From Rhizobiales bacterium NRL2 (GTDB lineage Bacteria; Pseudomonadota; Alphaproteobacteria; Minwuiales; Minwuiaceae): DNA of 64,000 bases. Position 1 is the first letter of the stretch; each line of letters begins with the position of its first letter. The position numbers and the translations under genes were made by a program. The stretch lies in assembly GCA_001664005.1 (NCBI GenBank), contig CP016093.1:2687001-2751000 (forward strand). The letters run 5' to 3'. Below, one piece after another: positions 6,958 to 45,424 of the stretch. Below the pieces are notes generated by a model. It ran no database searches, had not been told where the DNA came from, and worked only from the letters and a program-made list of their open reading frames with translations.

Positions 6958-7033
6958 GCCCAGGTAGCTCAGTTGGTAGAGCAGTGGACTGAAAATCCGC
7001 GTGTCGGTGGTTCGAATCCGCCCCTGGGCACCA
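6958..7033 (+). tRNA. tRNA-Phe (anticodon GAA)
   Basis: A complete 76-nt cloverleaf: acceptor GCCCAGG (6958-6964) pairs with CCTGGGC (7023-7029); D-stem GCTC/GAGC; anticodon stem GTGGA/TCCGC with loop CTGAAAA, anticodon GAA at 6991-6993; T-stem GGTGG/CCGCC with loop TTCGAAT; CCA encoded at 7031-7033. The gene stays intact because the island at its 3' end brought an identical 3' segment. No other RNA gene was seen in the window. Confidence 0.97.
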
Positions 7034-7038
7034 TTTTT
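6987..7038 (+). repeat. attL: 52-bp direct repeat, 3' half of tRNA-Phe
   Basis: Runs from the last bases of the 5' anticodon stem through CCA and five T. Identical to 45373-45424 in the same orientation. The left copy forms part of the functional tRNA gene. Confidence 0.93.
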
Positions 7039-7512: not shown

Positions 7513-9864
7513 CTATTCTACTTCATATTTTACAATACTTCGGTCCAAAGAAGAAGTAGACCGCCAGTAGTTTGGCTCTCCGCTATCCCAAAAAGCATGG
7601 CGATTTCCCGCACGAATTTCATTTCTCAATCTAATACCGCTATTCATGCAATGACGCCTCAGCTCAAGATCCAGCCACTCAAAGGTTTGATGAAAAGGAA
7701 TAGTTCGGCCATTGCGGGCCCTACGCGGAATCGCAATCGAAATACTCCCATTATTTGTTATACTTCCAATCAATGTAGGAAGTAAGTTTCTAAAAAACTC
7801 AGCCATTTTCTCAGCGCCGCCTTCCTGAATATTATATCCGTAAGGCGGATCGCAAACAATATGGTCTACAGATCTTTCAAGGTTGCGCATTAAATCGAGC
7901 GAATCATCAACCTTGCACAAGAAAACCCCTGGCCTCTTACTTTCCACGATATGTTTCACGTCACCCGGCTTCACATTTTGAATCTTTTTCAATATTTCAT
8001 AAAATTTTTGACTCTGAACTTTTAAGATTGCCGAATAACTCCCCCCTTTACTCACTGAAAATGCCCCCTTTACGACCCCTTGCCACCGAACATCTTCCAC
8101 AAGACTTGTCTTTTCGTAATGATCTTCAAGTTCTAATATTGTTCTATTGATTTCCTCCTTAATGACATGGTCTAAATTTTCTTGGCTGATTTGAATACTA
8201 ATCCATTTTTGAGCAATGGCGCGCCATACTATGTAAAAAATGCACCTTGTTCTTAAATCACACTTGTCATCATCATTTAAAAATTGCATGATATCGTTGC
8301 CAAACCCTTCATCCATCATTCTTTTTATTGCAGATGCGACTTTTCTCTGACTGTTTTCACAACTTTTGACGTCAACGTAATTCATGATACCGCTATAGAT
8401 ATAGATCACTATTTGCAAAAACTTCTCTGTTGCACTTTTGCCCTTGAGCCCTGCCAACTTGGTTTTTTGCGCATTCAATAAGTCGTCGTAGGGCACCAGA
8501 AAAGAGGGGCTATAATTCTCCAACTTTGCAACTATTGCTCGAAGATCCGTTTCCAAATTAGATATTTCCGACGGTGTGTAGGAAAAAAAATGCGCGTTAT
8601 CTTGAACAAGACGGGGGAATAGCGGGTTTCTGTCGAACCCTAATATACATGCGTCTGGATATCTAATTGCCGCATCTAATATTGTTGTTCCGGTTCCACA
8701 AAATGGATCGATAAAAACAAACTGCTCATTCTGATGTTGATCCAAGCCCGCCAGATTAATTAGTGCGCCTGAAAGGGTATGCGGAATTGTTATAGGCGCA
8801 CACCACCCTAATTTTCGTTCCTTAAAGGTATGCAATGGGTTGGCGTTTCGAAAATACTGCGCATATAGTATGAGATACTTATCTCGTGTATTTATTTCGT
8901 ATATTCCAGCTTGACTGTCTGCAATACCACCATCGGTGATCATCCAAATTGTGCAATCGTCGACAGTTTTACTCTCAATTTTTTCTGTTTTATAATTTTT
9001 TATCCCCTGGGGGACGAAAATCTTGTTTTGAAATCTATTTTGTATAAAAGCAACGTAGTCTAACAATGGCGTTCCTTCAATATAATGTTTTCGTAGATGA
9101 AGTCGTATGCCATCAAGGCCATTCCTAACAGATGCCGGGGACATTACCTTTTCATCATCGGAGAAAAGCTCTTCAGCATAGGCGGTAAAGAATATTTTTT
9201 TTCCTTCTTCCAAATTTGCTAAAAACTCATCTAAACGCTTAGTTATAACGTGCTGCTCGGCTTTCTCTGCATTGCGTATATAAAGAGGCAAACCGGCCGA
9301 ATGCGCATAACCGGACATTGCGACGACAGAAATCATGTCGCACTTCAGAACATTCGGAATATGTATCAAAACCGATGTAAAATACGGCTCTATAATGATA
9401 GAGTTCTTGAATAGATCGGCGTATATTGCGCGAAAATGTTCGATAAAATCCAATGAATTGTCGGAAAATTTGGATTCAATGTGCGTTCTGTTAAAAAAAT
9501 CGATCTCATTTATTGCATTTCTTAGCAGAGTGGTTATATAATAGTCGGTTCCTATACAAATAGACTTCTGTCTTTTAGGTGGTATTTTAAGATTAGCGCG
9601 AACGAGAGCTTCTATTTCATTATAAAATAGATCGGTAACTGATGCATTTTTTTGTGAAAGAATAAAAAATGAGCCCGCAAAGTCAGCGAAATCTGGCTCA
9701 CTTCCATAGGATGACATTCCACTTCTGTAATACCAATCCGCCTTAAACGCGCGGATAAAAATGTTCGCGTCAAGTTCGTAGAGCCGCTCCTCGGCGTTAG
9801 GGTCTATTGCCTCCCTAACCGCTAAACTTAGGGCGCGGCGAATGGCGCCGGTTAAATCGTCCAT
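7513..9864 (-). CDS. Putative DNA (or RNA) methyltransferase, AT-rich
   Basis: A 783-aa protein with a split methyltransferase domain. The AdoMet-binding motif FIDPFCGTGTTILDAA is near residues 385-400, followed by the acidic loop ILGFDRNP, and the catalytic motif VCDPPYGYN is near residues 668-676. DPPY fits N6-adenine or N4-cytosine DNA methylases and also the UPF0020/TRM11 RNA-methylase group. The first 340 residues have no recognised domain and the insert between motif I and DPPY is unusually long (about 270 aa). The gene is strikingly AT-rich against the rest of the window and lies directly inside attL, which indicates recent acquisition. A role in host defence or self-marking is inferred from location only. 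Confidence 0.7.
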   Translation of the reverse strand: MDDLTGAIRRALSLAVREAIDPNAEERLYELDANIFIRAFKADWYYRSGMSSYGSEPDFADFAGSFFILSQKNASVTDLFYNEIEALVRANLKIPPKRQKSICIGTDYYITTLLRNAINEIDFFNRTHIESKFSDNSLDFIEHFRAIYADLFKNSIIIEPYFTSVLIHIPNVLKCDMISVVAMSGYAHSAGLPLYIRNAEKAEQHVITKRLDEFLANLEEGKKIFFTAYAEELFSDDEKVMSPASVRNGLDGIRLHLRKHYIEGTPLLDYVAFIQNRFQNKIFVPQGIKNYKTEKIESKTVDDCTIWMITDGGIADSQAGIYEINTRDKYLILYAQYFRNANPLHTFKERKLGWCAPITIPHTLSGALINLAGLDQHQNEQFVFIDPFCGTGTTILDAAIRYPDACILGFDRNPLFPRLVQDNAHFFSYTPSEISNLETDLRAIVAKLENYSPSFLVPYDDLLNAQKTKLAGLKGKSATEKFLQIVIYIYSGIMNYVDVKSCENSQRKVASAIKRMMDEGFGNDIMQFLNDDDKCDLRTRCIFYIVWRAIAQKWISIQISQENLDHVIKEEINRTILELEDHYEKTSLVEDVRWQGVVKGAFSVSKGGSYSAILKVQSQKFYEILKKIQNVKPGDVKHIVESKRPGVFLCKVDDSLDLMRNLERSVDHIVCDPPYGYNIQEGGAEKMAEFFRNLLPTLIGSITNNGSISIAIPRRARNGRTIPFHQTFEWLDLELRRHCMNSGIRLRNEIRAGNRHAFWDSGEPNYWRSTSSLDRSIVKYEVE

Positions 9865-34324: not shown

Positions 34325-35296
34325 TCAGGGCGCCCCGATGTCGAAGGTCGCCAAATCTAGGCCCAGCCATTGGCGACCGATCAGCTCCTTCATCGGCCCC
34401 GCGGGCCGAAACGTCGGCCCGAAGTTCTCAATTGAACCGAACAGCAGCCAGGGGAAACTGCCGGCAGTTCCGGCCAGTTTGATCATCCGCGCAATTTTCC
34501 GCTCGTCCGTCCCGACGACGAGAACCATCAGAGGCGCCGTGAGCTTCAGATGGTCCCGGTAGTGCCCCTCGCCGACATAGGCCCGATACTGCGCCAACGA
34601 GCGTTGCCAGCTCTTGCGGTTCCAGTTGCTCGTGGTCATGGGTTCGGTGCCGCGGTCGGCCTCGACGAGGAAGAAGCGGTATCGCGCCCCGGCATCGGTC
34701 AGATATTCAAGCCCGAAGAGCGCATCGGGAATGAGGTCCCTGGTTACGGTCCTGCCCGTTTTCGGGTCCTTGATCGGGGTGGGGAAGCGCAGCTGGGCCC
34801 CTGCCCTCTCGAGCACCCGCCAGCCCGGGATGAATTTCAGGTCATCGCGGCTCAAGGTCGCCAGCTCGATGGAGGCAGTGATGCAGGCGGTCATGAAACC
34901 ATGCAGCCAGGGGCCCGAGGGCCGTGTCGCATAGGCCGAGTACGAACCGGCGTCCTTCAGGGCGTCGATTGAGGCCGGCGTCAGATCGTAGACAAGCTGA
35001 TTATAGCGGCTGTCGATCGTGCGGAACTGCTGCAGCGGCCGCGATAGGTAGGGACCGCCATGGCGGGTTTCGGATTCGTTGAAGAGGTCCGTCAAGCGCT
35101 CCCTGGCCCGCTTTACGCTGCGATATTCGCCAGCCGAGAAGCCGTGCAGGTAGGAGGACGGCAAAGGCCCGTGCTCGTGGATCTTGCGAAACCAGAGCAG
35201 ATCCCGGGGCTGCGGACTGATGCGCTTGCCGGTCGAGATCGGCCGCAATCGGTTGCGGCGCTGGATGGCGTCAAAACCGGGCGCCGGCTCCGCCAT
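34325..35296 (-). CDS. Replication-relaxation family protein
   Basis: A 323-aa protein of the replication-relaxation type (PF13814-like): N-terminal winged-helix region (RDLLWFRKIHEHGPLPSSYLHGF), a central YNQLVYDLTPASIDALKD segment and the family block DALFGLEYLTDAGARYRFFLVEADRGTEP with conserved acidic and arginine residues. The start codon directly follows the ATPase stop (TAGATG). The family is implicated in replication or transfer of plasmids and islands; the mechanism is unknown. Last gene of a three-gene operon. Confidence 0.82.
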   Translation of the reverse strand: MAEPAPGFDAIQRRNRLRPISTGKRISPQPRDLLWFRKIHEHGPLPSSYLHGFSAGEYRSVKRARERLTDLFNESETRHGGPYLSRPLQQFRTIDSRYNQLVYDLTPASIDALKDAGSYSAYATRPSGPWLHGFMTACITASIELATLSRDDLKFIPGWRVLERAGAQLRFPTPIKDPKTGRTVTRDLIPDALFGLEYLTDAGARYRFFLVEADRGTEPMTTSNWNRKSWQRSLAQYRAYVGEGHYRDHLKLTAPLMVLVVGTDERKIARMIKLAGTAGSFPWLLFGSIENFGPTFRPAGPMKELIGRQWLGLDLATFDIGAP

Positions 35297-37423
35297 CTAC
35301 CAGGTTGGCGTCGCGTCGGTGGCCGATGAGCTCTCAGCCGCGGGTTGCGGAGATGCTGCCTCCGAAGTGTCCTTGACCTTCGCTTTCCGGTCACTCGCCC
35401 CGGCCGCCTCGACGCTCGGCCTGCCAAGTTCAGAATAGTGCACCGCGTAGCGCGCCCGCATGCGCTCCTGAAGATGGCGCCGGGCCTCCGCGGACATCTG
35501 CGCCCGGGCTTCCAGTTCGCCGAACGGGAAGGACAACGGCAGCGCGTGGCTGGTGGCGCCTCGCACATAGGCGGCAAAGCTGCCCTTGGGCTGGTTCTCG
35601 ATCAGCGCCGGATCGCAATGGAGCATCGGCGCCAGGGCGCGCGCATCCTTCGCCGAGACGCCGCCGGCGAATTTGATCGCCGTATTGGCGGCGAAGGCTT
35701 CCTGCAGCTTGGGCTCAAGCTGTCCCAGATACTGGTGCGCCAGCACCGTGCCGACACGGTACTTCCGCGCCTGACTCAGGATGATGCCGATATTGCGGTC
35801 GAAATAGTCCGCCGCCTCGTCGATATAGACGAAGGTCGGCATGCGTTCCTTCTCCGACAACGTCGCGCGCTCCTGCGCGGCCTGGGCGATCATGGCGATG
35901 AAGAACCGCCCGAAGATCTCGGTGCCCTGCTCCTTCAGGAGATCCTTCGCGGTGTTGATCAGAATAACCTTGCCGGCGTTCATCTCCGCGAAGAGGTCCA
36001 GCTTCGATCGCGGATGGGAGAACATCCGCTCGAAGGTCTGGTTTTCCAGGATGCCCCAGAGGCGGCGGAGCACCTGCTTCTTCGTCTGCTCGAACTCCTT
36101 CGAGGTGAACTCGGTCTCGAAGAAATGCCGCGCGGTGCCGGTCAGCTTCTCGATGTGCTGGGCGAACTTCACCTCGCTGCCGGGTTCCATCAGCTCGCGC
36201 AGCGTGTGGATGGTGGCGTCGGGGATATGGAGCATGAGACGGGTCACGTAACGGAAGATGACGCTCTGCTTCTGGGTCATCTCCGCGGCGAGGAGCGAGC
36301 CCAGGACGAAGTCGTAGAGCTCCAGGATGGAGTTGGTGAGCCGCTCCCGCTCCAGCGGCGCATAGCCCTGGAGCCGTTCGATGCCGACGTCGAAGAGATT
36401 GAGCGAGACCGGCCATTCGACATCAGTCGGATCGATCACGACGATCCGGTCGGCGAGCGCCCCGCCCTCGGCAAACTCGGCCAGGCGGGAGATGGTGCGG
36501 ATAAGATCGCCCTGGCTGTCCAGGACCACCACGCTTCGCGCGCCCAGCGCCACCGCTTCGAGATCATGGCCGATCAGATACTGCAGCGTCTGTGTCTTGC
36601 CGTGTCCCGAACCGGCGACGATGTGGTGATGCTCGAAGCGGGCTTCCGTCGGAATCACGAAGGGCAGCTCCTGATCGAAGAGCTCGAGCAGCGGCGTGCC
36701 GCCGAGATAGGTCGCGGCGAGTTCCGCCGGATCGGCGATATCCGACTTCGATGGCATTTTGGGCATCCGCTGAAAAGCCCGCGGATCGGCCGCCGGATTG
36801 CCGCCCGAGGCCGCCACCAGATTGCGTTCCAGCCGGGCGACGTGCCGGGTGAAGAGGCCGGCCTCCGCCAGCTCGTCGGTGCAGATGGCGGCGCAGACTC
36901 CCTCCGTCAGCCGGCCGACATCGCCGATGCTGCGGATCAGCGGCGCCGGCGCGGGAATGCCATCATCCATGTCCGCATCAGCCGCCAGTGCCGGACAGGC
37001 CCCGTGAAGCCGACCCACGATTTCGGCGAAAGTGTCGATCAGCAGGGATTGGACCAGGGGCAGGCCTTCCAACAATTGCCGCTGGACGTTCAGTTCGTCG
37101 CGCAGCGCCCAGAGCTCGGAAACCGAGCGCCGGTCCGCCCATCCGGGCTCGGGCATGAGGAACAGACCTTCATAGTCGAAGGTCCTTTTGATAAAGCGGA
37201 GCACGACCGCGCGCTGAGGATGATCGTCCGGTAGGTCCAGTCGGGCCAGGACGTCCGATGTCAGCTCCTCGATCAGAACCTCACGCCCTTCCGGCGAACG
37301 CAGCCCATGGCGGCGGAACAGGCCCTCGACGCGATCGAAAAGCTCCTGGGTCACCTGCAGATCGCCCGGCCGGAACAGCCCGTGGATGAAGGCGTGCGTC
37401 CGGGCGGCGAGGTGGAGCGGCAT
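35297..37423 (-). CDS. VirD4/TraD-like DNA-transfer ATPase
   Basis: A 708-aa ATPase. After an N-terminal region of about 250 aa without a clear membrane anchor come Walker A VAGSGHGKTQT (about 269-279), VVLDSQGDL, Walker B TFVYIDEAADYF (530-541) and LAHQYLGQLEPKLQEAF. It is related to the shorter ATPase at 12425-13651. It overlaps the upstream membrane-protein gene (ATGA), so a membrane partner could supply the anchor. It probably drives DNA movement or unwinding at island transfer. No secretion channel is encoded nearby. Confidence 0.85.
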   Translation of the reverse strand: MPLHLAARTHAFIHGLFRPGDLQVTQELFDRVEGLFRRHGLRSPEGREVLIEELTSDVLARLDLPDDHPQRAVVLRFIKRTFDYEGLFLMPEPGWADRRSVSELWALRDELNVQRQLLEGLPLVQSLLIDTFAEIVGRLHGACPALAADADMDDGIPAPAPLIRSIGDVGRLTEGVCAAICTDELAEAGLFTRHVARLERNLVAASGGNPAADPRAFQRMPKMPSKSDIADPAELAATYLGGTPLLELFDQELPFVIPTEARFEHHHIVAGSGHGKTQTLQYLIGHDLEAVALGARSVVVLDSQGDLIRTISRLAEFAEGGALADRIVVIDPTDVEWPVSLNLFDVGIERLQGYAPLERERLTNSILELYDFVLGSLLAAEMTQKQSVIFRYVTRLMLHIPDATIHTLRELMEPGSEVKFAQHIEKLTGTARHFFETEFTSKEFEQTKKQVLRRLWGILENQTFERMFSHPRSKLDLFAEMNAGKVILINTAKDLLKEQGTEIFGRFFIAMIAQAAQERATLSEKERMPTFVYIDEAADYFDRNIGIILSQARKYRVGTVLAHQYLGQLEPKLQEAFAANTAIKFAGGVSAKDARALAPMLHCDPALIENQPKGSFAAYVRGATSHALPLSFPFGELEARAQMSAEARRHLQERMRARYAVHYSELGRPSVEAAGASDRKAKVKDTSEAASPQPAAESSSATDATPTW

Positions 37424-38683: not shown

Positions 38684-38706
38684 AGAAGGGGTATGATACC
38701 CGTTCT
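38684..38706. promoter_or_regulatory. 23-bp operator-like dyad 1
   Basis: Perfect symmetry AGAA-N-GGGTAT-N-ATACCC-N-TTCT centred at 38695. It contains TATGAT, a good -10 candidate on the plus strand, so a bound protein would block transcription. Confidence 0.7.
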
Positions 38707-38713
38707 CGGCGGC

Positions 38714-38736
38714 AGAAAGGGTATCAGACCCATTCT
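38714..38736. promoter_or_regulatory. 23-bp operator-like dyad 2
   Basis: Same dyad with one arm mismatch (AGAA-N-GGGTAT-N-AGACCC-N-TTCT), centre 38725, exactly 30 bp from dyad 1 (about three helical turns) and ending 4 bp before the GGAGGT ribosome site of the regulator gene. Confidence 0.7.
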
Positions 38737-38750
38737 ATGGGAGGTGGCAT

Positions 38751-39269
38751 CTGCGTTATGTAACGACACCTGTCGCCGTACGCCTGACGGGGCTTTCTAC
38801 TGAAAAGCTCCGCGAGTGGAGTAGTCGGCGAGCCCTCATCCCGGCCGACATACGTCCCAAACAGAAGGGCTCTCCGGCCAAATTCACTTGGCAGACCGTG
38901 CTGATGCTGAGGCTGGCGGTTGTCTTGCGTGACCACTTCAATCTCGAGCTACAGGCGCATAAGCCCTTTTTTGCGCAACTTCGACAGGGTCTTCGCAAGC
39001 GGTCGTTTATCACATTGTGGGGACAACGACTTGTGCTGTGTCCTGTCGGCTGGGATTTCATTGAAGAGGGAGCCCCCCTCCCCGAGGGCGACGTACTGCT
39101 GCTGGAACTCGATCCGCATCTGCATGTTCTGCGGGACGGGTTCGCCCTGCCGGACGCAGCTGCAGCGCGCGGACAGCTCGATCTGTTTTCTTTGCCGAAC
39201 CTTCGACGCGCCGACCAGGCAGCGACCGTGGCCGAAGGCGTAGGAACGGATCGAAGGTGGTCGGCATGA
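38751..39269 (+). CDS. Small MerR-like DNA-binding regulator, apparent CTG start
   Basis: The frame is conserved-looking from codon 38757 on: YVTTPVAVRLTGLSTEKLRE followed by WSSRRALIPADI resembles a MerR-type helix-turn-helix, and the C-terminal half ends in QLDLFSLPNLRRAD. The only in-frame ATG (38898) would remove the whole HTH region. GGAGGT at 38740-38745 is correctly spaced for CTG 38751, so a CTG start (172 aa) is the best reading; a sequencing difference is an alternative. It lies 103 bp upstream of the methyltransferase and probably controls the operon via the two dyads. Confidence 0.6.
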   Translation: MRYVTTPVAVRLTGLSTEKLREWSSRRALIPADIRPKQKGSPAKFTWQTVLMLRLAVVLRDHFNLELQAHKPFFAQLRQGLRKRSFITLWGQRLVLCPVGWDFIEEGAPLPEGDVLLLELDPHLHVLRDGFALPDAAAARGQLDLFSLPNLRRADQAATVAEGVGTDRRWSA

Positions 39270-39372
39270 GCGCGTACCGCACATCGGCCTGCATCCGACG
39301 GCTATCGCCTTTGCCCATCGCCATTGTTCCTGTTATGTTCTTTTCTCTGTACATGGGACGAAAGGAACTACT

Positions 39373-42300
39373 GTGAGCCCGGCATCGATGCAGGACTGGC
39401 TAGAAAGGCTCGGCTATACCGCCGAGCCTGCCGTCTTACATCGCCGCGATGAGGCGGTTCCAGAAACCCACCCCTACGCATTGGAGATAAAGACCCTCCT
39501 CAAGCAAGATGGGGCCATACGGGCTCACGCTGTCTTCGACGTAGAGAGTGTGCCTACTGTCGTGTTCGTCGGTGACGACGGTGCCCCCCTGTCACAACAC
39601 GCCCTCGACGAAACGCGCAAACGCATCTGGAATCAGAATCTCGCCACGGTGGTGATCGAAGTGAAGGGCGAGAAGGCACTCGCCTTACCCGCCCGAAAGC
39701 TGCGCAATGCTGGCGAGCAGCTCTTCATACAAGATGCCAGACCGGACGGACCTTTCTCCGCCCTAGACATTGCCTCGGCCAATGTCACCCGCCGCGTGCC
39801 GAACTGGTTCGACGTCAAGGCACGCGTAGACCGCAAGCTGCTCGCCAACCTCTCCACCGTCGTTTCGAAACTGGCAGAGGGCGGCCTCTCCGGGACCACT
39901 GTGGATCATGATGTCCGGCACTTGGCCGAACTCCTAATGGGACAGGTGCTCTTCGTCTCCTACCTCGAACACCGCGAGATTGTAGGTGCCACCTACCGCA
40001 ACCGCCGACGAGTGGTGCCGCTTCACGAGCTCATTGCGGAAGGTGACCGCCAAGGCTTGCGGGCTCTGATCGATTCATTGAGGTCGGATTTCAACGGTGA
40101 CTTTCTCGGCGACGATCGTCATGACCCCTGGACCGCGCTAACTGACGGTGGCTTCCACCTTATCAACCAGTTTCTCCGTCGTACGGACATGCGTACGGGC
40201 CAAGGCGACTTCTGGAACTACGATTTCAGCTATATCCCTGTCGAGCTGCTCTCTGGACTGTATGAGTCCTTCCTCTCTGCAGAGCAACAGGCTAAGGAGG
40301 GCGCTTACTACACACCCCGTCACCTGGCTATGCTGGCCGTCGATCAGGCCTTCTCAAGCTCACCCGATCCATTGTCAGAAACAATCTTCGACGGCGCATG
40401 TGGTTCGGGAATCCTTCTGACCACAGCCTACCGGCGCCTTATCGCCCTGTCGGAGGCCCGCGCAAGACGCCAATTGCGCTTCGGCGAACGGGCAGACTTG
40501 CTCAAGCGCCGCATCTTCGGTGGTGACATCAACTTCATGGCCTGCCGCGTCACAGCATTTAGCCTCTACCTTTCGTTGCTGGAAGGCCTCAACCCGGCGG
40601 ACATCATGGAGGCCCAGGAGCGTGAAGGCACACAATTGCCTTCGCTGAATGGCGCGAACTTGACCCATGGCGAAGAGGCAGCGGACTTCTTCCGCGACGA
40701 GCATGCCTTCAACGACAAGCGCTTTTCACTGATTATCTCGAACCCACCCTGGGCGGAGCCAGAGGGTGCGTCGCGGACGTCCGCAGACGCGTGGACGGAG
40801 CGTGTGGATGCGCCGTTTGTCCGCCGCCAGATTGCTGGCGCCTATGCGCTGCGTGCAATCGACTTTCTCGAGACCGGTGGCCGAGTCTGCCTCATTCTTC
40901 CCATCGGCCAGTTCCTCGGACCATCCAGTGCTGATTTCGTATCGCATCTGCTAGAGCAATATCGCCCTTTGCGCCTGATCAATTTCGGCGATTTGCAAGG
41001 GCTGCTCTTCCCGACCGCCGAGAATACGTGCCACGTCTTTCTTGGTGAGGCTCGGCCAGAGCGCCTTCCGGGCCGGATCCCGTTCGACGAGACCTTTGAA
41101 TACTGCGTGCCCAAGGCGGACATGAGCCTCGCGCTCGGTCGGCTCACCATGCAGTCGGCGGACAAGCACCGGCTACAGACGCGCTCAGTGGCGGAAGATT
41201 CGCAGCTTCTCGTAACGATGATGTGGGGCGACGCCAACGATCTCTCCATATGGACCCGTTTAACCGCACGCGGCACCTTTGCCGATTTCTGGCGCGGCTC
41301 GCGGGAGTTTCGCCGGTGGGTCTACCGTAAGGGCATCCATTTGAACGACAGAAGCCGCGAGCCCGTCAGCGCCGCCCCGCTGCGCGACAAGCGGTTCGTG
41401 CCCGTAGCCGCCTTGAGCGCGGGCTCCCCCGTGCTGCATCCCGATCTCCTCAGGGCCTGGCCTGAAAATCAGGACACTGTGGTTGGCTTGAACGATTCGG
41501 TGCTGGCCGTGTTCGACGGACCGCGCGTGCTATTTCCGGATGGCTTCTCCAGAGAGCAGCTCAACGTTCGAGCTGTCTACTACGATGGTCCGGCGACGTT
41601 CACACATAGTATCGGCGTAATTTCGGGCACACAGGAGGATGCCAAACTCCTACAGTTCGTTGCCGTCTATCTGCGTTCCAGTCTCGCGCGCTACTTCCTG
41701 ATGATGCGCGGCTGGAAAATGCTCTGCGAACGCAACGGCGTTCATCTCACCGATGTCGAAGCGTTTCCCTTCTTCACTCCCGACAACGCCCCGAATCCGG
41801 ACGCGGCGACCGAAGCATTAGTGAGTGTATCTCGTCATGTTGGCAAGATCGCCAACCTCCCGGAACTTGAACAGAGCAGGCGGTATGACTCCCTGAAGTC
41901 GGAGCTCGATCACGCAGTCTTCACCTATTTCGGCCTCACGCCCGAGGAGCAGACGCTGGTTCGCGAAACTGTTGATATCTTGATGCCGTCCATACGACCT
42001 CGCGGATTCAAGAGTCTCGACACACCGGCTCAGCACACCACTCAGCCCGATGATTTTGCGGTCTACGCACGCGCACTCGCAGAGACCCTGACTACATGGC
42101 GGAGCCGAACACGCGGCAAGGGTCGCTTCCAGGTCGACGTCGTGGCCAGCGACCCTCGGCGCGCCGGCCCCTCCGGGATCGTTCGCATAACCTACAAGGA
42201 AAAGCCCACCGGGGCGCCTATCGTGAACACCGCAGTAAATGACGATCTCGTTCTCCAGACGCTGAACCAGCTTCGCGTCTCCGGTCTCAGAGCTATTCCC

Positions 42301-42480
42301 TTGGGAGAATCCCTATCCCTGGTTCCGGATGCACATATCTGGGTCGACCGATCCCTCTATCTCGTTCGCCCCCTCAGCCAGCGCAATTGGACCGTTCGCC
42401 AAGCCCTGCGCGATGCTGAGCAGATCGTAAGAACGGTTCAGTCGCATGGAGCTTCTGGCCAGTTGGGGGTGCCCGCGTGA
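39373..42480 (+). CDS. Large N6-adenine DNA methyltransferase (type IIG/Eco57I-like)
   Basis: A 1035-aa protein starting at GTG with an AAAGGAAC site. Residues about 300-470 are the methyltransferase core: EGAYYTPRHLAMLAVDQAF, motif I IFDGACGSGILLTTAY (about 336-351) and motif IV LIISNPPWAEPEG (about 453-465). The roughly 540-residue C-terminal part resembles the target-recognition region of type IIG enzymes. An N-terminal region of about 150 aa contains VVIEVKGEKALALPARKL, whose E-x-K could belong to a nuclease-like domain but lacks clear partners. It overlaps the next gene by 4 bp (GTGA). Confidence 0.85.
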   Translation: MSPASMQDWLERLGYTAEPAVLHRRDEAVPETHPYALEIKTLLKQDGAIRAHAVFDVESVPTVVFVGDDGAPLSQHALDETRKRIWNQNLATVVIEVKGEKALALPARKLRNAGEQLFIQDARPDGPFSALDIASANVTRRVPNWFDVKARVDRKLLANLSTVVSKLAEGGLSGTTVDHDVRHLAELLMGQVLFVSYLEHREIVGATYRNRRRVVPLHELIAEGDRQGLRALIDSLRSDFNGDFLGDDRHDPWTALTDGGFHLINQFLRRTDMRTGQGDFWNYDFSYIPVELLSGLYESFLSAEQQAKEGAYYTPRHLAMLAVDQAFSSSPDPLSETIFDGACGSGILLTTAYRRLIALSEARARRQLRFGERADLLKRRIFGGDINFMACRVTAFSLYLSLLEGLNPADIMEAQEREGTQLPSLNGANLTHGEEAADFFRDEHAFNDKRFSLIISNPPWAEPEGASRTSADAWTERVDAPFVRRQIAGAYALRAIDFLETGGRVCLILPIGQFLGPSSADFVSHLLEQYRPLRLINFGDLQGLLFPTAENTCHVFLGEARPERLPGRIPFDETFEYCVPKADMSLALGRLTMQSADKHRLQTRSVAEDSQLLVTMMWGDANDLSIWTRLTARGTFADFWRGSREFRRWVYRKGIHLNDRSREPVSAAPLRDKRFVPVAALSAGSPVLHPDLLRAWPENQDTVVGLNDSVLAVFDGPRVLFPDGFSREQLNVRAVYYDGPATFTHSIGVISGTQEDAKLLQFVAVYLRSSLARYFLMMRGWKMLCERNGVHLTDVEAFPFFTPDNAPNPDAATEALVSVSRHVGKIANLPELEQSRRYDSLKSELDHAVFTYFGLTPEEQTLVRETVDILMPSIRPRGFKSLDTPAQHTTQPDDFAVYARALAETLTTWRSRTRGKGRFQVDVVASDPRRAGPSGIVRITYKEKPTGAPIVNTAVNDDLVLQTLNQLRVSGLRAIPLGESLSLVPDAHIWVDRSLYLVRPLSQRNWTVRQALRDAEQIVRTVQSHGASGQLGVPA

Positions 42481-43193
42481 CGGCGACGGCTGAGTGGCTT
42501 GCGGCCTTTCCCATTCAACCTGCAAGGGAAGCCGTCGAGGCACTCCGTGAGGCTTGGTCGGAGCTATCCGAGCGACCGCGCTCCGACTTCAACCCCAAGA
42601 CCAAAGAGACGGCACTGACGAAGCGGCTCAAGGTTTATGTCGAGAACTACACGGCGCGCCAACGAGGCCTTCTCGGCATGTGGGCAGCCGAAGACATCAT
42701 AGGAGAGATCGATCCGGTCACCGGCGAAATGATCGAGGAACGCAGAACCGATATCGTCTATGGCTGGAACGACGAGGCCCAAGATCTGAAGCTCGTGTTC
42801 GAGTTCAAGCGCCTCGGTAAACAGAAGCGCCATCGAGATCACTATTTGCGCGAGAACGGATTGACGCGGTTCGTCACTGGCATTTATAGCCGCCGTCAGG
42901 CAGTCGCCGCGATGGTCGGCGTTCTTCTCGATCCGGAATGCGACGTAGTTCCGCCAATCAGAAAGATGCTCGCTGACAAAGACCTGTCCGACGAGTTGAA
43001 GCTACGGCCAGCAGCCGACGGTACTCCGTTCATCCAACCCTCGCTACTGTTTGAAGCGGCGAACTTCGATACGGAGCATGAGCGAGACCCAGCTCTAGCA
43101 CCCACCCACGGCCATATCCGCGTCGCACACATTTTTCTATCGTTCGGCTACCCAACCACAACCCAGAAATCAAAAACGAAGAAACCAAATTGA
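42477..43193 (+). CDS. Putative PD-(D/E)XK nuclease, partner of the methyltransferase
   Basis: A 238-aa protein translated from GTG overlapping the methyltransferase stop. E44 in KETALTKRLKVYVE, D92 in ERRTDIVYGW and E109-x-K111 in LKLVFEFKRLGK make a full PD-(D/E)XK pattern with the usual N-terminal helix glutamate. The C-terminus is basic (QKSKTKKPN). Pairing with an adenine methylase suggests restriction of unmodified DNA, but the nuclease is not a named restriction enzyme to my knowledge. Confidence 0.75.
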   Translation: MTATAEWLAAFPIQPAREAVEALREAWSELSERPRSDFNPKTKETALTKRLKVYVENYTARQRGLLGMWAAEDIIGEIDPVTGEMIEERRTDIVYGWNDEAQDLKLVFEFKRLGKQKRHRDHYLRENGLTRFVTGIYSRRQAVAAMVGVLLDPECDVVPPIRKMLADKDLSDELKLRPAADGTPFIQPSLLFEAANFDTEHERDPALAPTHGHIRVAHIFLSFGYPTTTQKSKTKKPN

Positions 43194-43206: not shown

Positions 43207-43507
43207 TAGCAGGCTGTTGAAGAAGTCGGTGGAGCGCCGGGCGGCAACGCGATTCACTCGATTGGCGAGATCGCCGAGCGGTTCTTGGATGCGGTGCTGG
43301 CGCAGCCGCGGGTGGCGCGGCTGCCGCCTACAATCTGGTCCGGCTTCCCAGGCTGCTGGCGCAGGCATCGCCATGACCGCGCCGATGAACTGCCAGCTGA
43401 TCGGCCGACCTGCTCGACGACGGCACCCTTGAGATCGAGTTCGCCTACCATCTCGGCAACGAGGCCGTCCTCAAAGCCGTTCGTGGGCCTTCTTCAACAG
43501 CCTGCTA
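43207..43507. mobile_element. 301-bp IS remnant with perfect 19-bp ends
   Basis: Positions 43207-43225 and 43489-43507 are perfect 19-bp inverted repeats (core AGGCTGTTGAAGAAG). If the ends are drawn 3 bp further in, the flanks TTAG and CTAG fit the YTAR target pattern of IS5-group elements. The inside keeps only the transposase C-terminus and the right-end sequence. Confidence 0.75.
43317..43376 (+). pseudogene. IS5-family transposase C-terminal fragment
   Basis: The frame reads AAAYNLVRLPRLLAQASP then stop, the common C-terminus of IS5-type DDE transposases; upstream codons do not continue into a transposase. Confidence 0.7.
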
Positions 43508-43582: not shown

Positions 43583-43605
43583 GGCCGGGCTGTGCACGCC
43601 CGGCC
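43583..43605 (-). terminator. Terminator after the AlpA-like gene
   Basis: GGCCGGGC (43583-43590) / GCCCGGCC (43598-43605); on the minus strand followed by a T/C-rich tail (TCTCTTCTTTCTTT). Confidence 0.75.
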
Positions 43606-43620
43606 GCCCAGCTCCTGCAT

Positions 43621-43818
43621 TCAGGAGTGTCGGACAGGTTCGTCCCGGCGGTTCAGCCGTTCCTGAAGCCAGTCGAGCACCTCGTCCTCAACCCATCCCA
43701 CTCTGTTGGGGCCGATCTGGACCCGCTTGGGGAACTTCCCGGCCTTCTCCAGCCGTGCGACGTGTTGTGGCGAGTACAGAACCAGCTCCTTCAGCTGACG
43801 CTTCGACAGTATCCTCAT
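43621..43818 (-). CDS. AlpA-family regulator / excisionase-like protein
   Basis: A 65-aa protein: MRILSKRQLKELVLYSPQHVARLEKAGKFPKRVQIG with GWVEDEVLDWLQERL is the AlpA/MerR-type winged HTH found beside integrases. It sits directly downstream of the integrase gene on the same strand, with its own AAGGAG site. It is likely to act as recombination directionality factor or integrase regulator. Confidence 0.85.
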   Translation of the reverse strand: MRILSKRQLKELVLYSPQHVARLEKAGKFPKRVQIGPNRVGWVEDEVLDWLQERLNRRDEPVRHS

Positions 43819-43890
43819 CACGATGCTCCTTGATGGAGAAGCATCGCGATGCCCCTGGTTACGACAATACCCACGGGTGCAGCGATGGTA

Positions 43891-45174
43891 TCAGTCGGCG
43901 GCCTCAGACGCGAGCACTTGAGCAGTCTTGCCACTTAGCGTCGCAATGAAATCAGCCCACGCGTCCACTGCACCACGCTTTTCGTCGGCGAAGTCATGGC
44001 GTTGATATACGGCGACAATGCCCCCGAACGTCCCGCTGGTATGATTCAGGAGCTTCTCGACCACATGAATGCCGACACCGAGCCGCGCCATCCCGGATGC
44101 CGCTGTCCGTCTAAGGTCATGAATGCGCCAGGGCGGTAGCACCACTTTCTCAGGATCCTCACCGCGTTCCTCGGCCATGCGCTGAAGTTCCACGAGCATC
44201 GCCGCATCAAGCCGGTTCTTTGCACGGCCAAAGCCGGAAGCGGGCCGCTCCTTCTCCTCGTTCTCGGTGTCACGGGCAAACCGCGCAGGGAACAGCAGGC
44301 TTGAGCTCTCCTTGCTTTCGAGCTCGGTGATCAGATCAAGGGCTGCCTGGCTCAACGGCACATCATGGGGTTTGCCGTTCTTGGTCCGCTCACCGGACAG
44401 GCGCCACAACTTGTCCTGCAGATCGAACTCGGCCCAGGCGGCCGAGGCGACCTCGTCGCGTCGCTGAGCGGTTAGAAGGAGCAATCGAAAGATTGTGCCG
44501 AACGGGTTGCCGGCCTTGTCGCATGCAGTGAGAAACGCGCGCAGTTCATCGTCCGTCAGCACCCGATCGCGCGCCCGCTCCTTCGCCGGAGGTTTGATCC
44601 CGGTCACGGGTGAAGTCTCTATCAGCCCCCGCTCGACCGCCCATCCAAATAGCCTGCGGACATTCGTCAATATCCGGTTCACGCCAACGGAGAGACCTCG
44701 CTCCTCGGCCTTGTCGAGAACCTCGAGAATGTCCTGCCGACCAATGTCCTTGATCTCCCGGTGACCGATGACCGGATAGAGATGCCGCTCGAACATACGG
44801 ACGATCTCGTCGGCGGTTCGGTTCCGCGGCCGATGCCATTTCTCGATGAACTGCTCCGCCACCCGTTGGACGGTATCGGGCTCACGGCGTCGAGCCTCCA
44901 GCTTCTCGGCGGCGGGATCCCTGCCGAACTCCACTTCGTTTCGGGCATCCCGCCAGGCCTGTCGCGCCTCGGCAAGCGACATCGCCGGCCAACTTCCGAG
45001 CTTCATTCGCCGCTGTTTGCCGCGCAGGCGATAGAAGAACACCCAGCTCTTCCGCCCGCCATATGAGATACGGAGGGCAAGGCCCGGGTAGCCCTTGTCG
45101 AACTGGTCTTCCTGACCTTTTGCCGGCGGTTTGAGCCGCTCCACCACAGCGGCATTGAGGTTTCGTTTTGGCAT
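43891..45174 (-). CDS. Island integrase, tyrosine recombinase with DUF4102 domain
   Basis: A 427-aa integrase starting MPKRNLNAAVVERLKPPAKG. The DUF4102 arm-binding domain spans residues about 5-90 (GLALRISYGGRKSWVFFYRL), the core-binding domain about 100-185, and the catalytic residues are R238 (TAQRRDE), H351 and R354 (HDLRRTAASG), H377 (LLNHTSG) and Y389 (VAVYQRHDF). P4-type integrases of this kind use tRNA 3' ends, matching the attachment repeat 200 bp away. An extension to 45207 is possible. Confidence 0.95.
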   Translation of the reverse strand: MPKRNLNAAVVERLKPPAKGQEDQFDKGYPGLALRISYGGRKSWVFFYRLRGKQRRMKLGSWPAMSLAEARQAWRDARNEVEFGRDPAAEKLEARRREPDTVQRVAEQFIEKWHRPRNRTADEIVRMFERHLYPVIGHREIKDIGRQDILEVLDKAEERGLSVGVNRILTNVRRLFGWAVERGLIETSPVTGIKPPAKERARDRVLTDDELRAFLTACDKAGNPFGTIFRLLLLTAQRRDEVASAAWAEFDLQDKLWRLSGERTKNGKPHDVPLSQAALDLITELESKESSSLLFPARFARDTENEEKERPASGFGRAKNRLDAAMLVELQRMAEERGEDPEKVVLPPWRIHDLRRTAASGMARLGVGIHVVEKLLNHTSGTFGGIVAVYQRHDFADEKRGAVDAWADFIATLSGKTAQVLASEAAD

Positions 45175-45222
45175 CGCTCCAGGCTCCATCGACCTCCAAA
45201 GCGACACTAGGATACTTCTCTA

Positions 45223-45372: not shown

Positions 45373-45424
45373 GACTGAAAATCCGCGTGTCGGTGGTTCG
45401 AATCCGCCCCTGGGCACCATTTTT
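45373..45424 (+). repeat. attR: second copy of the 52-bp tRNA-Phe 3' segment
   Basis: Identical to 6987-7038. The sequence before it does not restore the 5' half of a tRNA, so it is a partial copy. Core genes resume after it. Confidence 0.93.

Follow-up and report, generated by a model that had tools for sequence, protein, structure and literature searches.

The closest described relatives of the locus analysed here belong to rather different systems. CamA of Clostridioides difficile, a 577-residue orphan methyltransferase (MTase) that has no nuclease paired with it (PMC8187626), was the best Foldseek match (E=1e-13) of the catalytic core and recognition region of our MTase. Type II systems with a gamma-class MTase of the M.BseCI kind have in common with the locus the order of the motifs, the recognition region and a separate PD-(D/E)XK protein. 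However, M.BseCI is a chain of 585 residues and the MTase described here is almost twice that size, with about 290 extra residues at the N-terminus and 200 at the C-terminus, and the sequence of the accompanying nuclease is not related to that of any named enzyme. The type IIG enzymes, as represented in PADLOC by the model PDLC03623, are alike over the whole length of the MTase, but here the MTase has no conserved nuclease site and cleavage apparently resides on a separate gene for which PADLOC has no model. PglX/BrxX of BREX and MAD2 of MADS have a related MTase core. Finally, the type I restriction-modification systems controlled by RptR encode a small DNA-binding protein first and carry repeated TAGCTA sites upstream (PMC12255303). 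Our locus also begins with a small predicted DNA-binding protein and has palindromic sites ahead of the gene for it, but this protein is MerR-like and not of the RptR fold, the sites are paired 13-bp sequences 30 bp apart, and the MTase belongs to another class.

We have analysed a stretch of 64,000 nucleotides from Rhizobiales bacterium NRL2 (hereafter the window), in which a cassette at 38751-43193 (+ strand) encodes, in this order, a MerR-like regulator, a 1035-aa gamma-class adenine MTase and a 238-aa protein. The cassette and its surroundings comprise the following features.

6987..7038, + strand: attL, the 3' end of tRNA-Phe plus 5 bases (52-bp direct repeat)
38689..38701, + strand: operator 1, GGGTATGATACCC, a perfect palindrome, also kept ahead of the regulator gene in relatives
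38719..38731, + strand: operator 2, GGGTATCAGACCC, 30 bp downstream of operator 1, a conserved paired site
38751..39269, + strand: MerR-like regulator, 172 aa, CTG start (relatives found by tblastn in the corresponding position of 35 loci)
39373..42480, + strand: gamma-class N6-adenine DNA MTase, 1035 aa, GTG start (Pfam N6_Mtase and Eco57I, PADLOC, Foldseek, motifs)
42477..43193, + strand: predicted PD-(D/E)XK nuclease, 238 aa, GTG start (invariant quartet, AlphaFold, Foldseek)
43621..43821, - strand: AlpA-like excisionase/regulator of the island, a neighbour outside the cassette (Pfam Phage_AlpA, 2e-9)
43891..45207, - strand: tyrosine integrase of the island, a neighbour (Pfam Phage_integrase, 5e-22)
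45373..45424, + strand: attR, the second copy of the 52-bp direct repeat

We believe that the cassette is probably a restriction-modification operon that regulates itself and divides modification and cleavage between two proteins. The gene order, the catalytic motifs, the predicted fold of the nuclease, the conservation of the operators and the fixed association of MTase and nuclease are read directly from the sequence. In the libraries and literature that we searched we found neither the nuclease family nor its fixed pairing with the MTase nor the operator pair; the MTase is known. No description of the cassette was found in the literature covered, most subscription papers and preprints lying outside this coverage.

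The methyltransferase and the predicted nuclease

The MTase is made up of an N-terminal domain, a helical linker, the catalytic core (about residues 286-560), the CamA/M.BseCI-like recognition region and a C-terminal domain. The motif order YYTPR, DGACGSG, NPPW is that of the gamma-class adenine MTases and is the one found in this protein, the core of which is matched by Pfam N6_Mtase and Eco57I. Within motifs I and IV, residues D340, G344, N457 and P459 were invariant and their neighbours nearly so among 15 relatives, down to 20% identity. The AlphaFold model is of moderate quality (pLDDT 65); CamA, M.BseCI, BpuSI and BREX PglX were found near the top of its Foldseek matches, and CamA also ranked first in a profile search of the PDB sequences. 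The MTase itself is not new, being already modelled in PADLOC: PDLC03623 (‘REase_MTase_IIG’) matches residues 6-1028 (E=5e-254), and also all of 15 diverse relatives.

The second enzyme gene overlaps the MTase stop by 4 nt (GTGA). Its product has a quartet of residues, E44, D92, E109 and K111, that was invariant in 32 close relatives and again in 22 diverse relatives with identities as low as 18%, far above chance; Y123, F132, M146, H201 and H218 were likewise invariant in the diverse set. The AlphaFold model (pLDDT 85.5, pTM 0.85) consists of a helix (44-62), three strands (68-78, 85-96 and 105-113), helices between 117 and 134 and a further strand (143-150), with E44 in the helix, D92 on the second strand and E109-x-K111 on the third. 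Foldseek against viral models retrieved a PD-(D/E)XK nuclease from Halogranum tailed virus 1 (probability 1.00, E=1.5e-4), with several more ranked below it; against the PDB, BamHI, MunI and EcoRV came near the top, none of them significant. Of the features of the PD-(D/E)XK superfamily, the catalytic residues on neighbouring core strands and the similarity of fold were both found, and from sequence and model we predict that the 238-aa protein is a nuclease of this superfamily.

At the sequence level the family had no convincing match in Pfam, NCBIfam, PADLOC, PHROGs or the PDB sequences, and no match to named restriction enzymes. The ‘protein A’ matches that came up in these searches were judged to be due to chance or composition. 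We detected no relatives of the nuclease in phage records by tblastn, and no DNA-level relatives in E. coli genomes or phage records. In RefSeq, nuclease relatives on the plasmids NZ_CP098363.1 (L053) and NZ_CP087096.1 (L068), and their relatives, bear the name ‘Fis family transcriptional regulator’. We rejected this name, motif and fold being those of a nuclease, and it is probably a misannotation.

A preliminary description of this DNA had proposed three co-directional genes, the last two joined by the GTGA overlap, a nuclease candidate with precisely this quartet, and an operon with operators in an integrase-proximal slot, and all of these hold, the start of the regulator at CTG 38751 included. 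Its view of the MTase as a large protein with unassigned terminal regions was right as to size and class but not as to the assignment, since PDLC03623 spans nearly the whole chain. It had also called for searches for a named family with the same three genes, which yielded no library that has all three and none that recognises the nuclease; the structure prediction that it asked for supported the nuclease, as detailed above.

Operators and the regulator gene

Twin GGGTAnnnTACCC sites, 28-31 bp apart, were present upstream of the regulator in 34 out of 36 loci, and with the same spacing in none of 10,800 mononucleotide shuffles. The perfect GGGTATGATACCC was also found in a Ciceribacter relative, the MTase of which is 37% identical to that of the window. 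Searching by consensus, we found no sigma-70 promoter near the operators. There were no other paired operators in the same genome under a strict pattern, which the pair of the window itself (with one mismatch) fails as well. From the position and the conservation of the operators we infer that the MerR-like protein regulates its own operon.

The regulator gene appears to use a CTG start at 38751, preceded by a Shine-Dalgarno-like GGGAGGT at 38739-38745, and no ATG, GTG or TTG start would be able to retain its helix-turn-helix. The codon aligned to this CTG in 35 relatives was CTG in 13 and ATG, GTG or TTG in 22, which suggests that the start is conserved. Gene callers that accept only ATG, GTG or TTG place the start at 38898, with loss of the helix-turn-helix. 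The match of the regulator to Pfam MerR_1 (E=0.008, 16.7 bits) is below the cut-off of 21.6 bits, and that of the regulator of the Ciceribacter relative (25.8 bits) is above it. Distant systems carry other small proteins in the first position, HTH_3-like or without a family match, and for this reason the MTase-nuclease pair is the core of the system and the regulator an exchangeable part. In the neighbourhoods of the related loci we found no fourth gene recurring beside the cassette across the family.

Island and mobile context

A 38.4-kb tRNA-Phe island (6987-45424) carries the cassette as cargo and is bounded by the two 52-bp repeats, with the AlpA-like gene and the integrase at its right end, which agrees with the integrase-proximal slot proposed at the outset. 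Among the other genes on the island are those for a multicopper oxidase, an EAL protein and a second recombinase. Its left end has a 783-aa protein (7513-9864, - strand) with weak matches to UPF0020, N6_N4_Mtase and MAD2, and at 34325-37423 (- strand) a Replic_Relax protein adjoins a TraD/HerA-like ATPase (weak MAD8 match), the two being possibly a mobilisation module of the island. A 301-bp element with perfect 19-bp inverted repeats TAGCAGGCTGTTGAAGAAG (43207-43507) starts 14 bases past the nuclease stop and looks like a MITE or the remnant of an insertion sequence. The Rfam family RF02649 (Ruegeria Trans44 sRNA) matches with 221 bits at 43587-43851 (- strand), spanning the whole AlpA-like gene on the same strand, and what this family describes may in part be a coding gene for AlpA and not a non-coding RNA.

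We looked for the empty attachment site within the genus and found one relative with the right flank, without the tRNA beside it. None of the six other genomes of the same genus had a close copy of the nuclease, and one had a distant nuclease relative with its own MTase (L045). Relatives are found on plasmids, of which many are conjugative or mobilizable, and some lie near integrase, ParB-like or conjugation-like genes (these names are our reading of the sequences). In the MTase tree the host families are intermixed, the window joining Parvibaculum and a Rhodobacteraceae bin. This tree and the distribution in the genus are consistent with horizontal transfer, rather than proof of it.

Association of the two genes and how the cassette may work

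Scanning a genome collection with the MTase we obtained 41 loci in Alpha-, Beta- and Gammaproteobacteria. The nuclease was directly 3' of the MTase in 39 out of the 39 loci whose contig continues far enough, although several of these are near-identical and not all are independent; at one of the loci (L028) a stop codon cuts the nuclease frame. The minus-4 overlap between both genes was kept in 33 of the 35 loci measured. The reverse search, with a nuclease profile, revealed the MTase directly upstream in 8 out of 8 further genomes, and the PADLOC MTase model, applied to the same 399 genomes, gave four other matches, all four with the nuclease. On plasmids, every locus that we opened (10 out of 10) had the nuclease 3' of the MTase, even with MTases only 20-37% identical to that of the window, and the nuclease relatives there (about 215-250 aa, annotated as hypothetical) keep the quartet. 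Among viral contigs the nuclease was present at nine loci of the MTase family and absent from three distant MTase loci (L072, L080 and L081), while another (L077) ends too early to tell. The identities of the two proteins co-vary (r=0.91, not reached in any of 5000 permutations), as plain co-inheritance would also give. Adjacent and co-inherited genes are what is expected of type II systems with separate R and M proteins, and the genes of this pair are both. The neighbourhood comparison suggested in the preliminary description has borne it out, the nuclease being tied to the MTase nearly wherever either was found. As to the wider proposal made there, of an undescribed restriction-like system, it is supported for the nuclease and for the pair; it does not extend to the MTase, already in PADLOC, and the MerR-type regulator is inconstant in distant relatives.

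In the restriction-modification operon that we favour, the MTase would recognise a DNA sequence through its CamA/M.BseCI-like region and methylate adenine in the host DNA, and the co-translated 238-aa PD-(D/E)XK protein would cut DNA without the mark. The MerR-like protein would bind the two palindromic operators, 30 bp apart, before its own gene and tune the operon, and such tuning would ease entry into new hosts on mobile elements. Methylation, cleavage, sequence specificity, the dependence of cleavage on the mark and repression by the regulator are all what we infer from the features read in the sequence. Against this reading stand the three distant MTase loci from which the nuclease is absent, its failure to match any named restriction enzyme in sequence or, significantly, any PDB fold, and the carriers with a broken MTase described next. 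The nuclease may be either a free type II enzyme or active only when docked on the MTase. An open nuclease frame accompanies a broken or shortened MTase frame in Mesorhizobium sediminum, a Pseudosulfitobacter plasmid group, pRSB223 and Rhizobium gallicum. Because a free nuclease should harm the cells unless silent, these loci lean towards a nuclease that depends on the MTase, although sequencing errors or lost expression could be responsible instead.

The docked version would represent a split class of restriction-modification, in which the MTase recognises the target and senses its methylation and the small co-translated PD-(D/E)XK subunit cuts only when docked. We put this forward tentatively, as somewhat less likely than not. 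If true, the split class would be the two-protein counterpart to type IIG and type I systems, widespread on proteobacterial mobile elements, that has stayed hidden as annotation tools detect the MTase alone.

The end-to-end match to PDLC03623 and the presence of BpuSI, a type IIG enzyme, among the Foldseek matches would also suit a single-chain type IIG enzyme, in which the 1035-aa protein would perform both reactions, cleavage and methylation, with the 238-aa gene as an accessory. The gamma-class core within a chain of ca. 1000 residues is indeed there, but a PD-(D/E)XK endonuclease site within the same chain does not seem to be: in the N-terminal domain (residues 1-290 of the relatives) no D...EXK is conserved, the lone candidate IEVK losing K98, and the invariant EXK site sits on a separate, nearly always present protein. 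We consider this explanation improbable. Since we tested for a nuclease feature in the single chain and did not find it, we have not filed the cassette as type IIG, and the PADLOC label looks incomplete for it, because the MTase N-terminus is without a conserved EXK and the nuclease is a separate unmodelled gene.

There is similarly little to expect from epigenetic regulation or plasmid and island addiction in place of defence, with an MTase that alters expression or a pair that punishes loss of the element. CamA, the top structural match, is an orphan MTase (PMC8187626), and the cassette is carried by plasmids and islands, which would profit from addiction; however, an MTase with its own co-translated nuclease, the catalytic residues of which are invariant, is anything but an orphan, and for restriction-modification systems addiction and defence are not exclusive. 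A non-cleaving exclusion akin to BREX or MADS, with self marked by the MTase and defence by something other than simple cleavage, is very improbable: PglX and MAD2 models match the MTase core and PglX structures are among its Foldseek matches, but the scores are far below the curated NCBIfam cut-offs (MAD2, 30.9 bits vs. 720; PglX, 23.6 bits vs. 400), neither PglZ, an ATPase or other BREX genes nor the MAD gene set recur nearby, and no other gene at all recurs beside the cassette.

Taken as a two-protein restriction-modification operon, the cassette appears to be a widespread mobile one that is on record either under the name of a single type IIG enzyme or as an ‘N-6 DNA methylase’ followed by a ‘hypothetical protein’ or a ‘Fis family transcriptional regulator’. 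The nuclease was missed by every library searched, and a profile for it would allow the system to be properly counted in defence catalogues. The fixed twin operators provide a clear and testable regulatory model, and the pair raises the question of whether an MTase as large as a type IIG enzyme can function when a second protein provides the cleavage in trans.
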